From positions 1 through 50,181 of the forward strand of contig NZ_BCWD01000017.1 of NCBI RefSeq assembly GCF_001592085.1: DNA of 50,181 bases. Reading direction: 5' to 3'. Origin of the DNA: Levilactobacillus senmaizukei DSM 21775 = NBRC 103853. GTDB taxonomy: Bacteria > Bacillota > Bacilli > Lactobacillales > Lactobacillaceae. Under the pieces are notes generated by a model. That model was given only the letters and a program-made list of their open reading frames with translations, was not told where the DNA came from and searched no databases. A program made the translations under genes and the position numbers. Position 1 is the stretch's first letter; the number at the start of each line of letters is the position of its first letter. Shown here piece by piece: positions 2,862 to 46,148 of the stretch.

Positions 2862-2904
2862 AAAAAAACACCAGATAGATTCAAAGTAGAATCTACCTGG
2901 TGTT
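2862..2904 (-). terminator. Leader terminator (stem C:D) of operon 1 attenuator
   Basis: Read on the minus strand, a 16-bp stem (2904-2889 with 2882-2867, one G-U pair, loop of six bases) is followed by a seven-T run. It sits inside the 5' leader, upstream of the binding-protein gene, so it must be conditional for the operon to be expressed. Its 5' arm (2900-2891) can instead pair with 2936-2927. Confidence 0.9.
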
Positions 2905-3044
2905 TATCGGGCCCGATATTATTTCTCCAGATAGATTTTACCCGTATCCATCTGGCGCTAAGTCATGCTGAAAAACTTTAGCTAATCGATAGATACGAAC
3001 GCATTTGTGCGGCGCGTTCGTATCCAACGGTGTGAATACAAACG

Positions 3045-3107
3045 CTATCTAAAGAAAAAGCTAAAGGCAAATTGGTTATTTAAATGATTAAGGCTATTCG
3101 ATTTCAT
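3045..3107 (-). CDS. Phe-rich leader peptide (20 aa)
   Basis: Short ORF with sequence MKSNSLNHLNNQ followed by FAFSFFFR and a TAG stop. Five of the last eight residues are Phe (codons 13, 15, 17, 18 and 19), as in classical phe operon leader peptides. An AAAGGGA ribosome site lies 10 bases upstream of ATG 3107, and a near-consensus promoter lies about 40 bases upstream. It is the first ORF of the transcript of the aromatic amino acid ABC operon. The stop codon abuts stem segment 1 of the attenuator. The product itself probably has no function; its translation rate is the signal. Confidence 0.82.
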   Translation of the reverse strand: MKSNSLNHLNNQFAFSFFFR

Positions 3108-3146
3108 AATGGCAAAATCCCTTTCATTTATCAATTTACAAGTCTA

Positions 3147-3175
3147 AGTAAACCATTAAAAAATGGCCATGTCAA
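3147..3175 (-). promoter_or_regulatory. Promoter of operon 1 leader
   Basis: Minus strand: TTGACA (3175-3170), a 17-base spacer, then TTTACT (3152-3147). It lies immediately downstream of the degV stop codon and puts the predicted transcription start near 3140, about 33 bases before the leader-peptide ATG. Confidence 0.8.
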
Positions 3176-4284: not shown

Positions 4285-4332
4285 ATGCAAATGTCTGCTT
4301 ACAAACTTAATGGACGTTGGCAAAGCCGGTAA
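4285..4332 (+). CDS. Trp-containing leader peptide (15 aa)
   Basis: Short ORF MQMSAYKLNGRWQSR with a strong AAGGAAGGAAAG ribosome site ending a few bases before ATG 4285. It holds one Trp codon (TGG, 4318-4320) four codons before the TAA stop, plus one Tyr codon. Trp is the rarest amino acid, so a single, late Trp in a 15-residue peptide ahead of a TrpXYZ operon is suggestive. The stop codon (4330-4332) directly abuts the first stem segment (4333-4340), the same geometry as in the Phe leader of the paralogous operon. Role inferred; coding strongly supported by the ribosome site and promoter. Confidence 0.72.
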   Translation: MQMSAYKLNGRWQSR

Positions 4333-4413: not shown

Positions 4414-4457
4414 GCCCGCACGGATGTTTATTATCCGGTTTGCGGGTCTTTTTCTTT
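4414..4457 (+). terminator. First terminator-like hairpin of operon 2 leader (A:B)
   Basis: Stem of CCCGCA with TGCGGG (4415-4420, 4441-4446) and CGGAT with ATCCG (4421-4425, 4433-4437), followed by TCTTTTTCTTT. It lies upstream of the structural genes and should therefore be conditional. Confidence 0.7.
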
Positions 4458-4487
4458 GGGCGCCCAGCCGGTCTGGGCGCCCTTTTT
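4458..4487 (+). terminator. Second, strong terminator of operon 2 leader (C:D)
   Basis: GGGCGCCCAG (4458-4467) pairs perfectly with CTGGGCGCCC (4473-4482), with a five-base loop followed by TTTTT. It ends 39 bases before the first structural gene, so it must be bypassed for expression. Confidence 0.88.
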
Positions 4488-4526: not shown

Positions 4527-5519
4527 ATGAAACGAATGTACAGTCTCATCGCGCTACTATTAATTTTTCTTGGATTCGCCTTTGTTAAGGAACAACACCA
4601 GACGGCCGCCAAACAGGCCGTTCCTACCGTCGGCATTCTTCAATTACTGTCGCATCCCGCCCTTGACGCCATCCATAAGGGCATCATTCATGGTCTCGCC
4701 GAGGAAGGCTACCACGTCGGTAAAAACGTGAAGATTGATTTTCAAAACGCCCAGAACGACCAGAGTAATCTGAAGACCATGAGTGCCCGCTTCGTCAACG
4801 AAGATGCGGACGCCATGATCGGGATCGCCACGCCGGCGGCCCAGGCGTTAGCCAATGCCAGTTCTAAAACCCCCGTCGTCTTGGGGGCCATCACCGACCC
4901 TGAGGGGGCCCACCTGGTGAAGAGTAATGAACATCCCGGTAACAACGTCACCGGGGTTTCTGACCAGGCACCACTTAAGTCGCAGCTGCAACTCATTCAA
5001 AAGATTATGCCAAGGATGAAGACCCTGGGGATTATCTACACGTCATCGGATGACTCGGCCACCGCTCAGTACCATCAGTTCGCCGCGTTATGCAAACAGG
5101 AACACGTTCGTTTGAAAGCCTACTCCATCGCTAACACCAACGACTTGAATCAGGTGGCCCAAGAGATGGTCAGCCAGGTCGACGCCGTCTACGTGCCAAC
5201 CGACAACACCGTTGCCAGTGCCATGCAGACCTTAGTTGCCACGGCAACTGCTAAGAAGGTTCCTGTCTTCCCGGCCGTCGATACCATGGTCAAAGCCGGT
5301 GGCCTAGCCACACTCAGTATCAACCAGTATAAGCTGGGGGTTGAGACGGGTAAGATGACCGCCGCCATCCTGAAGGGTAAGCACCCGGCGGATACCCCTA
5401 TCCATTTCGAACGGACCGGTGAAATGACGGTCAACCTGTCGCAAGCCAAAAAGTTAGGCATCACATTACCCGAATCAGTGATTAAAGAAGCCAAAGAACA
5501 TGGGGAGGTCTTCAAATGA
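4527..5519 (+). CDS. ABC substrate-binding protein, TrpX-like (operon 2)
   Basis: 330-aa ABC_sub_bind family protein, paralogue of the lipoprotein at 1729-2697. The mature domain starts with VGILQLLSHPALDAIHKG. The N-terminus is a single hydrophobic segment (MYSLIALLLIFLGFAFV) with no lipobox cysteine, so it is held by an uncleaved helix or released, unlike its paralogue. ATG 4527 has GTGAGG upstream. It is followed by permease and ATPase genes in overlapping arrangement. The leader peptide suggests control by tryptophan; the substrate is inferred. Confidence 0.9.
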   Translation: MKRMYSLIALLLIFLGFAFVKEQHQTAAKQAVPTVGILQLLSHPALDAIHKGIIHGLAEEGYHVGKNVKIDFQNAQNDQSNLKTMSARFVNEDADAMIGIATPAAQALANASSKTPVVLGAITDPEGAHLVKSNEHPGNNVTGVSDQAPLKSQLQLIQKIMPRMKTLGIIYTSSDDSATAQYHQFAALCKQEHVRLKAYSIANTNDLNQVAQEMVSQVDAVYVPTDNTVASAMQTLVATATAKKVPVFPAVDTMVKAGGLATLSINQYKLGVETGKMTAAILKGKHPADTPIHFERTGEMTVNLSQAKKLGITLPESVIKEAKEHGEVFK

Positions 5520-6415
5520 GTTTAGCAGTATCCGCAATTGGGCAAGGCCTACTCTGGGCCGTCTTGGGAGTTGGGTTATTCCTAACCTTCAGAATTTTAG
5601 ATTTTGCCGATATGACCGTTGAGGGCACCTTCCCGTTGGGCGCCGCGACCGCCGTGGCCGCCATCAGCAATGGGATGAACCCCCTGTTAGCAACTCTGTT
5701 AGCCTTTGCAATTGGGGCTATCGCCGGTCTAATCACCGGTCTACTATACACCAAGGGCCACATTCCCATCCTATTGGCTGGTATCCTGGTGATGACGGCC
5801 TGCTACTCCGTGAATCTGCGGATTATGGGACGGGCCAACGTCTCCTTGCTAGGCAAGGCCACCTTGTTCAAAAACCACTTCCTGGCCTCACTCCCCCAGT
5901 ACTTCGACAGTGTTGTCTTGGGTGTTCTAGTGATGGTGGTCATCACAACCATCGTCATTTACTTCCTGCAAACCGAGGTTGGCCAAGGATTCATCGCAAC
6001 CGGTGACAACCAAACCATGGCCCGTTCCCTAGGGATTAATACCGACAACATGAAGATCATGGGCCTCATGGTCTCAAACGGCCTGATTGCTTTTGGCGGT
6101 GCGCTGGTGGCCCAAAACAATGGGTACGCCGACGTCAACATGGGGATCGGGATCATTGTCATCGCCTTGGCCTCCATCATTATCGGTGAAGTGGCCTTCG
6201 GGGATCTGACCCTGAATCAACGACTAGTTGCCGTCACCCTTGGTAGTATCCTATACCGCTTCGTGCTGCTCCTCGTCTTGAAGCTCGGTTTCAGTGCCAA
6301 CGATTTGAATTTAATTTCTTCAATTATTCTGGCTATTTGCATGATGCTACCGGTCTTCAAGCACGTCCTTAACTTCAAACACATCTTGAAACGGGGGTTG
6401 GATACCAATGACTAA
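5516..6415 (+). CDS. ABC transporter permease, TrpY-like (operon 2)
   Basis: 299-aa membrane permease with about eight helices. It opens with MSLAVSAIGQGLLW and has the family segment FRILDFADMTVEGTFPLGAA. Its ATG overlaps the stop of the binding-protein gene (ATGA), with GGGGAGG upstream, so the two are translationally coupled. It overlaps the ATPase start by 8 bases. The paralogue is at 734-1705. Confidence 0.92.
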   Translation: MSLAVSAIGQGLLWAVLGVGLFLTFRILDFADMTVEGTFPLGAATAVAAISNGMNPLLATLLAFAIGAIAGLITGLLYTKGHIPILLAGILVMTACYSVNLRIMGRANVSLLGKATLFKNHFLASLPQYFDSVVLGVLVMVVITTIVIYFLQTEVGQGFIATGDNQTMARSLGINTDNMKIMGLMVSNGLIAFGGALVAQNNGYADVNMGIGIIVIALASIIIGEVAFGDLTLNQRLVAVTLGSILYRFVLLLVLKLGFSANDLNLISSIILAICMMLPVFKHVLNFKHILKRGLDTND

Positions 6416-7178
6416 ACCATTACTGGAATTGAAAAATGTGGTGTTAAAGGTTAATCGCAACACACCCGAAGAAATTACCATCCTAGATCACCTTAATTTA
6501 ACCATTAATGACGGCGATTTCATCACCGTGTTAGGTTCCAACGGAGCCGGGAAATCGACCCTCTTCAACGCCATTGGGGGCGACCTCAACATCGATAGTG
6601 GTCAGATCCTCCTAAATGGCAGGGACATCTCGCATGAGTCGGTTGAGCGACGGACCCGCTTTCTAGCCCGGGTCTTTCAAGATCCCAAGCTGGGAACGGC
6701 ACCCCGCATGACTGTCGCCGAAAATCTCTTATTAGCGGAACGCCGTGGTCAGCACCGTCGCCTGGTACCGCGCCAACTCAACAAGCAACTCGAGCGCTAC
6801 AAGGAACTCACCACGACCATGCATGACGGCCTGGATCAACGCCTAACCACCGCCACCGGCAACCTATCAGGCGGTCAACGACAGGCTTTGAGCTTCCTAA
6901 TGGCTACCCTAAAGCGACCGGATATTTTGCTTCTCGATGAACACACGGCCGCCTTGGACCCGCAAACCAGCCAGGACCTGATGCACCTGACGAACGAACG
7001 GGTTCAGTCCGAACGGCTGACCTGCCTGATGATTACCCATCATCTGGAGGATGCCTTGACCTACGGGAACCGGCTAATTGTTCTCCATCACGGCCAGGTT
7101 TCCTACGATGTTGCCGGGGCCGACAAGACTGCCCTGACCACTGAAAAGCTCTACAGCTTCTTTGCCGAAATCGAATAG
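6408..7178 (+). CDS. ABC transporter ATP-binding protein, TrpZ-like (operon 2)
   Basis: 256-aa ATPase. Walker A GSNGAGKST is at residues 43-51, signature LSGGQRQ at 153-159 and Walker B ILLLDEH at 173-179; the switch histidine lies in the MITHH segment. It overlaps the permease by 8 bases and is followed after 12 bases by a GNAT gene. Energises the importer encoded by the two preceding genes. Confidence 0.93.
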   Translation: MTKPLLELKNVVLKVNRNTPEEITILDHLNLTINDGDFITVLGSNGAGKSTLFNAIGGDLNIDSGQILLNGRDISHESVERRTRFLARVFQDPKLGTAPRMTVAENLLLAERRGQHRRLVPRQLNKQLERYKELTTTMHDGLDQRLTTATGNLSGGQRQALSFLMATLKRPDILLLDEHTAALDPQTSQDLMHLTNERVQSERLTCLMITHHLEDALTYGNRLIVLHHGQVSYDVAGADKTALTTEKLYSFFAEIE

Positions 7179-33587: not shown

Positions 33588-33672
33588 TCAATTGAACTGG
33601 GGTGCCGTGTCGGCTGAGATTAAACCCATTGAACCTGCTCTGGTTAGGACCAGCGAAGGGAACGCGAACTTT
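33588..33672 (+). ncRNA. TPP riboswitch (THI element)
   Basis: Conserved elements in order: GGGGTGCC, GGCTGAGATTAAACCC, TTGAACCTG, CTGGTTAGGACCAGCG and AAGGGAA. These match the TPP aptamer core. A terminator and the ykoEDC-tenA genes follow, so thiamine pyrophosphate should switch the operon off. Confidence 0.93.
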
Positions 33673-33683
33673 CTGCGATCAAT

Positions 33684-42134: not shown

Positions 42135-42164
42135 AAGTGACATTCCAATAAAAAATATAAGTGA

Positions 42165-42234
42165 TTGCCTATATAATGCCAAGATAAGGTTGGTGAGTTT
42201 CTACCCAGAGCCGTAAACTCTGGACTATAAGCAA
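42165..42234 (+). ncRNA. Purine riboswitch, guanine/xanthine-responsive class
   Basis: Aptamer core TATAAT, P2 GCCAA/TTGGT with its loop, GTTTCTACCC, P3 CCAGAG/CTCTGG with loop CCGTAAA, and GGACTAT. The C in GACTAT at the specificity position indicates guanine rather than adenine. P1 pairs TTGC with GCAA. It controls the downstream permease gene. Confidence 0.93.
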
Positions 42235-42290
42235 ATTGAGGACGAAACTCTTTTTGCCGATGAAGAGAATTCGTCGGTCGAGTTTTTCTT

Positions 42291-46075: not shown

Positions 46076-46148
46076 GGGCCCTTAGCTCAGCTGGGAGAGC
46101 GCCTGCTTCGCATGCAGGAGGTCGTCGGTTCAAATCCGGTAGGGTCCA
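46076..46148 (+). tRNA. tRNA-Ala (anticodon CGC)
   Basis: 73 bases forming a full cloverleaf: acceptor GGGCCCT/AGGGTCC with discriminator A, D arm GCTC..GAGC, anticodon stem CCTGC/GCAGG with loop TTCGCAT, and T arm CCGGT with GTTCAAATC. The anticodon CGC reads GCG (Ala). CCA is not encoded. It marks the border to an AT-richer, decayed region. Confidence 0.95.

Follow-up and report, generated by a model that had tools for sequence, protein, structure and literature searches.

The window analyzed here is positions 1 to 50,181 of contig NZ_BCWD01000017.1 of Levilactobacillus senmaizukei DSM 21775. The minus strand carries an ABC transporter operon composed of a substrate-binding protein (PF04392, 1729-2712, with ATG 2697 as the likelier start), a permease (PF02653, 734-1705), and an ATPase (PF00005, 34-822), all identified by Pfam. 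The binding protein has its nearest named match in L. tangyuanensis at 95% identity. It is related to aromatic amino acid binding proteins, and its solved relatives include 6hni, which agrees with the initial annotation of an aromatic amino acid ABC operon at this position. With the TrpX model NF041285 (cut-off 390), it scores 301 bits and falls below the cut-off, and its plus-strand paralogue scores 489.5 and lies above it. Elsewhere in the window are a TPP riboswitch (33588-33678, plus strand), a purine riboswitch (42149-42247, plus strand), and a tRNA gene (46076-46148, plus strand).

A leader of about 300 bases, running from promoter to terminator, points at the binding-protein/permease/ATPase operon. 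The promoter, the 20-codon ORF with a ribosome site, and the FAFSFFFR peptide end reported earlier for this leader are all present on the minus strand between 3175 and 2862. The −35 box TTGACA (3170-3175) was read from the sequence and is invariant in a 37-row leader alignment that includes one cut copy of the window. A 17-nt spacer separates it from the −10-like sequence TTTACT (3147-3152), which has a TG one base upstream. The promoter consensus scan of the window did not report this −10-like sequence; the ATG-TT-ACT context is retained by the relatives in the same alignment. The ribosome binding site is AAAGGGA (3118-3124), and its purine run is also retained in relatives. The leader peptide ORF, MKSNSLNHLNNQFAFSFFFR, spans 3045-3107 from its ATG at 3107 to a TAG stop codon at 3047-3045. 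Phe occupies positions 13, 15, 17, 18, and 19, or five of the last eight residues. Among the 329 ORF ends of the window with a ribosome-site-like motif before the start codon, only that of the leader has more than three Phe in the last nine residues.

The leader RNA can be divided into segments, for which all coordinates refer to the minus strand. Segment 0 (3059-3066, CUUUAGCU) consists of the Phe15-Ser16 codons and pairs at eight of eight positions with 2983-2976, forming a helix designated P0. Segment 1 (3033-3045) starts at the last base of the leader stop codon, in keeping with the original placement of its start at that codon. Segments 2 (3014-3026) and 3 (2987-3002) follow. Next comes the partner strand of P0, AGCUAAAG (2976-2983), which across the wider family mostly changes in step with the codons, and then segments A (2944-2955) and B (2927-2937). 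Segment C (2889-2905) is the 5’ arm and segment D (2867-2882) the 3’ arm of a strong intrinsic terminator detected by the terminator scan at 2905-2866; its T run lies at 2862-2868, ahead of the structural genes. Between B and C is a self-complementary linker, TATCGGGCCCGATA (2905-2918), which most of the 31 aligned Phe-type leaders retain with some variation and which contains a conserved GGGCCC. A pause hairpin, a dimer site, and a protein site are possibilities for this linker.

Two alternative sets of pairings had been proposed for the seven segments from 1 to D, and every helix in both sets is present with all bases in standard pairs. The terminator-open set is composed of 1:2 (12 of 12 pairs), 3:A (9 of 9), and B:C (11 of 11), and the terminator-formed set is composed of 2:3 (12 of 12), A:B (10 of 10), and C:D (16 of 16). 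The folding energy of the leader has a z-score of −7.3, and none of 200 shuffles was equally good. The seven-segment drawing is incomplete in one respect. In the naked fold of the leader the terminator forms and the Phe codons pair downstream, a pairing that the drawing omits. The naked minimum-energy fold places segment 0 against B (0:B). This pairing was rejected as a conserved helix, being 93% paired with no covariation beyond shuffles; in ribosome-free RNA it is only possible.

No T-box reaches the Rfam gathering score anywhere in the window, in line with the earlier statement that no T-box motif is seen, and no T-box or known riboswitch family in Rfam matches the leader. Two matches at the leader, to RF04312 trpB at 25.5 bits and to mir-10 at 17 bits, fall under the cut-off and were attributed to chance.

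The effect of a ribosome on folding was modeled by removing the RNA it would hide, which was assumed to extend up to 12 bases 3’ of the A-site codon’s first base. When the window transcript is folded to the end of B, the predicted A:B value is 0.83 for a ribosome that has reached the stop codon, and stalls at Phe13, 15, and 17 lower it to 0.00, 0.00, and 0.06, respectively. A stall at Phe18 or Phe19 gives values that resemble the stop-codon value. Because such a stall is predicted to act like a finished ribosome, the early Phe codons would be the sensing ones, as also first suggested. The ribosome-free transcript in the same folding set has values of 0.00 for A:B and 0.02 for B:C. In 34 of the 36 Phe-type leaders (window included), the stop-codon A:B value exceeds the lowest value of the eight preceding codons by more than 0.3.

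Once C has been made and a ribosome is on the leader, the equilibrium B:C value in the window is 0.79-0.98 from the B side wherever the ribosome stands. From the C side it is 0.52 at the stop codon versus 0.56-0.62 with a stall at the Phe codons. Because B:C wins at equilibrium in all ribosome-bound states of the window, the switch would have to depend on the order in which the segments are synthesized. Among 141 sites of the wider family described below (39 of 180 were left out for a weak or overlong A:B), stalling lowers A:B by more than 0.3 in 25. Folding to the end of C, even with the best stall position taken, puts B:C above both other states by that margin in 47 of 180 sites; both folding tests set the best of several stall codons against a single stop position and are thereby biased towards this reading. 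In Phe-type leaders folded to the end of B, ribosome position may decide the fold; the separation is poor across the wider family and at equilibrium, where folding to the end of C is too weak a test of switching.

A DNA search located the leader in 32 of 35 Levilactobacillus genomes, with three lacking it, and also in Lactiplantibacillus; Levilactobacillus brevis and Lactiplantibacillus plantarum are among the species that have it. The peptide end QFAFSFFFR, followed by the stop codon, is retained in both genera, and the N-terminal half drifts. Leaders of further genera of Lactobacillaceae also end in FAFSFFFR and a stop codon, once in the form FNFSFFFR. Conservation of the Phe run was set beforehand as a point on which the attenuator reading could be refuted, and FAFSFFFR is found in all aligned leaders from Levilactobacillus and from Lactiplantibacillus.

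Covariation was counted in alignment A3, which contains 31 Phe-type leaders from several genera. These were taken from 49 distinct Phe-type rows, of which 17 near copies were dropped by eye and one (L258) because no terminator end was found for it. The two pairing states were counted as named, without prediction. In the terminating state, 97.8% of cells are paired and 8 pairs are changed on both sides. It contains 44 both-side-changed cells versus 10.3 in shuffles, with none of 500 shuffles as high, and sliding the partner strands lowers pairing to 25-42%. In the antiterminating state, 98.4% of cells are paired, and 10 both-side-changed cells compare with 2.5 in shuffles, again with none of 500 as high. 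This state has 3 pairs changed on both sides and is less strongly supported, because 55 of 500 shuffles also reach 3. The compensatory pairings named as a second point of refutation are therefore present in both states relative to shuffles and slides, more strongly in the terminating one, and the mutually exclusive terminator and antiterminator pairings are kept by covariation in the Phe type. In one column each of segments 3, A, B, C, and D, all five letters depart together from the commonest set in four leaders (L184, L242, L244, and L265). Across the 31 rows of these columns, 3:A is kept in 31, A:B in 30, B:C in 25, C:D in 29, and all four in 22. For Phe-type leaders, the evidence supports the relay well.

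The window leader is matched over its full length by Rfam family RF02863 (sRNA_2410, Enterococcus faecium), with 33 bits and an E-value of 8e-4. The match includes the last leader codons, the stop codon, hairpin 1:2, and P0. Since the gathering score is 61 bits, the window leader is a homologue of RF02863 and not a member by the Rfam cut-off. A search of 198 genomes of the order gave RF02863 matches in 107, with 48 over the cut-off, covering 34 of 55 genera. No match was found in 14 control genomes, nor, with the strict filters of this order search, in the genome of the window. The matches number 146 (summed from the table), of which 130 were read and 16 were not. The leaders at these sites end in YYFSYFR, FFFSYFR, FYFSYFR, and similar sequences, and there are few exceptions to an aromatic-rich ORF. 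The leader at L130 looks broken, and that at L173 ends in NWQSHNR with a single Trp and is a possible bridge between Tyr/Phe and Trp leaders. The stop codon is at the position of the window stop codon in many sites and three codons later in others. The leaders with the three-codon extension, for example to FRYCL, belong to family f7 and parts of f2 and f9 (L108, L109, L111, L115, and others). The extension would carry a finished ribosome further into segment 1.

Two further covariance models were used. Model R1 represents the core, and its rows include the window; ten core rows had been dropped by a regular expression. R1 matches 68 of 301 family genomes, 35 of 398 class genomes (five outside the order), and 3 of 299 phylum genomes, all three within the order. 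For R1, 49 of 76 matches in the family were read (27 were not), as were all nine outside the order. Model R2 was built from 16 leaders of the aminotransferase/transketolase type, including one PTS and one dehydrogenase leader and no Phe-type leader. It nevertheless finds the window leader with 48 bits (E-value 1.7e-5), the sole match at E ≤ 0.1 in this genome. In two genomes of the genus that have no DNA match to the window leader (G033 and G034), the best R2 match is a leader ending in WYFR before an aminotransferase.

An intrinsic terminator was found in 180 of the 181 distinct sites. Pairing of each site with its own sequence was compared with pairing to sequences of other families, with a shuffled baseline of −7.9. 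The own A:B pairing has a median of −15.4 versus −10.4 and beats 95% of the others in 78 of 180 sites; the own B:C pairing has a median of −12.9 versus −9.0 and does so in 91 of 180. The own 3:A pairing beats 95% of the others in just 29 of 180 sites. Outside the Phe type, the relay is plausible.

At least four of the last 13 leader residues are Phe, Tyr, or Trp in 186 of 188 sites, an enrichment that is partly built in, as RF02863 and R1 include the last leader codons; 3 of the 329 window ORF ends, the leader included, have this composition. Codons −6 and −7 give a cleaner figure because they lie outside RF02863. Of 119 distinct sites, 117 have an aromatic codon at −6 and 108 at −7, with TAT, TAC, TTT, and TTC interchanging. 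Aromatic identity is therefore kept there rather than one RNA sequence, and the leader ORF of the wider family is under amino-acid-level selection.

The leader codons also serve in the RNA structure. In P0, the Phe-Ser codons UUUAGC pair with GCUAAA directly 3’ of segment 3. The codon core of each of 180 sites was compared with its own downstream region and with those of other sites, and 168 match their own region. The common core TTTAGC matches its own region in 134 of 136 sites and 11 of 44 others. The values for the variant cores are 7 of 8 versus 5 of 172 (TACAGC), 3 of 4 versus 14 of 176 (TACGGC), 7 of 7 versus 44 of 173 (TTTCGT), and 2 of 2 versus 12 of 178 (TTCGGC). Cores TTTGGC, TTTTGG, and TTTAGT are uninformative because G-U pairs let them match most of the other sites as well, and no match to the own region is seen for TTCAGC (3 sites), TTAAGC, CAAAGC, and TACGAC (1 site each). 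Only 52 of 180 sites have a P0 duplex energy better than that with 95% of foreign partners. RNAalifold finds P0 unaided in the divergent aminotransferase/transketolase set, with both-side changes in 6 of 9 pairs. In the 68-row core, it finds hairpin 1:2 and no P0. (Alignment A2 had 72 rows selected and 68 aligned, with L130, L147, L169, and L173 dropped.) On the basis of the own-versus-others match and the RNAalifold fold, the leader codons themselves are one strand of a covarying helix that was absent from the initial scheme.

The peptide sequence bears on a different kind of sensing. With TnaC, Trp acts on a ribosome that still contains the leader peptide, and free Phe, rather than tRNA charging, could similarly act on a ribosome holding the MKSNSLNHLNNQFAFSFFFR peptide. 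Retention of the Ser and Arg positions besides Phe would suit such nascent-peptide arrest, but their codons lie in or beside helices P0 and 1:2, which can account for the retention. Beyond the RNA model, aromatic codons switch between Phe and Tyr, a freedom hardly compatible with a specific arrest peptide, and for an importer, control in this direction would be unusual. Arrest by free Phe is thus considered very unlikely.

Downstream genes were clustered and Pfam was applied to representatives. All 130 RF02863 sites read are upstream of a same-sense gene, which belongs to aromatic transport or synthesis or, in two sites (L145 and L182), encodes a family 3 solute-binding protein. DAHP synthase alone is downstream of L096, L098, L119, and L130, and chorismate synthase of L166; the others precede a binding-protein operon or aroE with DAHP synthase. 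Over the 188 sites (181 distinct), the binding protein comes first in 122, the permease of its operon in 1 (L140), aroE in 36, DAHP synthase in 7, the family 3 binding protein in 2, chorismate synthase in 1, and a type found by R1 in 19. The R1-found genes are aromatic-type aminotransferase (10), transketolase (4), prephenate dehydratase (3), 2-hydroxyacid dehydrogenase (1), and a PTS membrane protein (1), where all 19 were assigned by similarity to 7 examined with Pfam. Transketolase makes erythrose 4-phosphate, a precursor of DAHP, and as its source fits the aromatic gene set. The single cases at L269 and L271, with a PTS EIIC-like membrane protein and a D-2-hydroxyacid dehydrogenase downstream, may be due to chance or be species-specific. 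The original description, an attenuator ahead of an operon in a lactobacillus, stands as regards the importer operon and is too narrow in its range, as homologues across the order serve the aromatic gene set.

This gene context argues against a trans-acting small RNA, as which Rfam (type sRNA) and the E. faecium study classed sRNA_2410, with the terminator as its 3’ end. The accessible part of that study describes two sRNA_2410 transcripts on Northern blots (PMC5593968), a picture that a terminated leader RNA would give as well. The constant position upstream of same-sense genes and the aromatic-rich ORF, with its few exceptions, leave the small-RNA reading slightly less probable even than peptide arrest. 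The words “leader” and “attenuat” are absent from the main text of the sRNA_2410 paper (PMC5593968). A ligand-binding riboswitch or an unrecognized T-box-like tRNA sensor with an incidental ORF might account for the high RNA conservation and the conserved GGGCCC linker, but is the least probable reading of all given the lack of any T-box or riboswitch family match at the leader and the amino-acid-level selection on the wider-family ORF.

A second leader ORF, MQMSAYKLNGRWQSR, is located on the plus strand at 4285-4332, followed by terminators at about 4425-4482 and the divergent TrpX operon (4527-7178). This leader has a match in 34 of 34 genomes of the genus. LNGRWQSR was read in 29 of 30 translated loci of the genus; at the remaining one (L194) the script took another ATG and the DNA has the same codons. 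Model R3, made for this leader, matches 70 of 201 family genomes in 18 of 40 genera. Outside the genus, 17 loci were read; their leader regions contain WQSR or, in one case, WWRR, four lack a complete ORF under the rule applied, and a similar binding protein lies downstream as judged by sight. The plus-strand leader is probably a Trp attenuator and is perhaps of the same stock as the Phe leader. Because the neighboring importers seem to be read by Phe and Trp leaders, Phe would be the likeliest substrate of the minus-strand importer.

We consider it very probable that the minus-strand leader is a ribosome-mediated leader-peptide transcription attenuator, with Phe-tRNA charging as the sensed state and a Phe (aromatic) importer under its control. 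In the proposed mechanism, translation of the leader would convert the supply of Phe, as the signal, into termination or readthrough. When Phe is plentiful, the ribosome would reach the stop codon and cover segments 0 and 1, and 2:3, A:B, and C:D would form and terminate transcription. When Phe is short, a ribosome stalled at Phe13-17 would cover segment 0 and leave segment 1 free, which would permit 1:2, 3:A, and B:C, and the terminator would not be made. With no ribosome, segment 0 would pair 3’ of segment 3 (or, with less support, with B) and the terminator would form by default. An untranslated leader would terminate because the 3’ part of segment 3 would be held in P0, which would be a third state beyond the two of the initial annotation.

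Leader-peptide attenuators are a known kind of regulator. The trp, phe, and his attenuators of Proteobacteria have a residue-rich short ORF, mutually exclusive hairpins, and an intrinsic terminator before an importer or biosynthetic operon. The window leader shares the ORF, the exclusive hairpins, the terminator, and the downstream operon with them; they classically have four segments, whereas the window leader has a seven-segment relay and the codon-borne P0. For DAHP synthase in Streptococcus and Lactococcus, a regulatory signal was reportedly proposed by Panina et al. in 2003. A literature search with leader motifs as text found no paper, and an earlier partial notice (Panina et al. 2003, Vitreschak et al. 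2008) is possible.

Among Firmicutes, the portions available of the respective papers describe His leader peptides in Bacilli (PMC2965389) and in Peptostreptococcaceae and Erysipelotrichales (PMC9413887) and a Leu-rich attenuator in S. aureus (PMC5794164). By description, these are of the same kind as the window leader for other amino acids. The uORFC-13-1 motif upstream of aroF in Acholeplasma is proposed as a Phe-codon uORF with a terminator before DAHP synthase, and the available portion of the source gives it only from Acholeplasma and environmental sequences (PMC8632094). By description, it resembles the window leader in the Phe-codon uORF and the terminator. The related importer gene trpX of S. 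suis is, in the available text, under transcription attenuation by a Trp T-box, which binds tRNA and has no leader peptide (PMC9382623). The earlier remark that Firmicutes use T-boxes for such genes holds for this relative.

The RF02863 members of the order resemble the window leader in having Tyr/Phe leaders and aromatic genes downstream. They differ in having been published as an sRNA, in that the window peptide is Phe-only, and in that the window score is below gathering. From sequence comparison, the window leader appears to be the Phe-only form of a Lactobacillales-wide element whose other forms have Tyr/Phe codons and, in a few cases, Trp codons. With somewhat better than even confidence, we propose that one homologous scaffold, known to Rfam as an enterococcal sRNA, is the aromatic amino acid regulator of Lactobacillales. 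In this relay, read by the ribosome, the sensing codons would double as a helix strand, and changes in them (Phe, Tyr/Phe, and in a few cases Trp) would be offset by compensatory ones downstream. The scaffold would have spread to importers, aroE/aroF, aroC, pheA, aromatic aminotransferase, and transketolase, and of its three ribosome states (none, stalled, and finished), only the stalled one would permit transcription. What looks new is the relay length, the codon-borne helix, the order-wide spread, and the reinterpretation of the sRNA.

If this proposal is true, lactic acid bacteria would have a coherent aromatic amino acid regulon under leader peptides, where T-boxes have been thought responsible. 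An orphan Rfam sRNA would become a regulator with a predicted signal, and importer specificity would be predictable from the leader codons. The natural series of Phe, Tyr/Phe, and, rarely, Trp leaders would then illustrate how attenuators shift specificity while retaining their folds.
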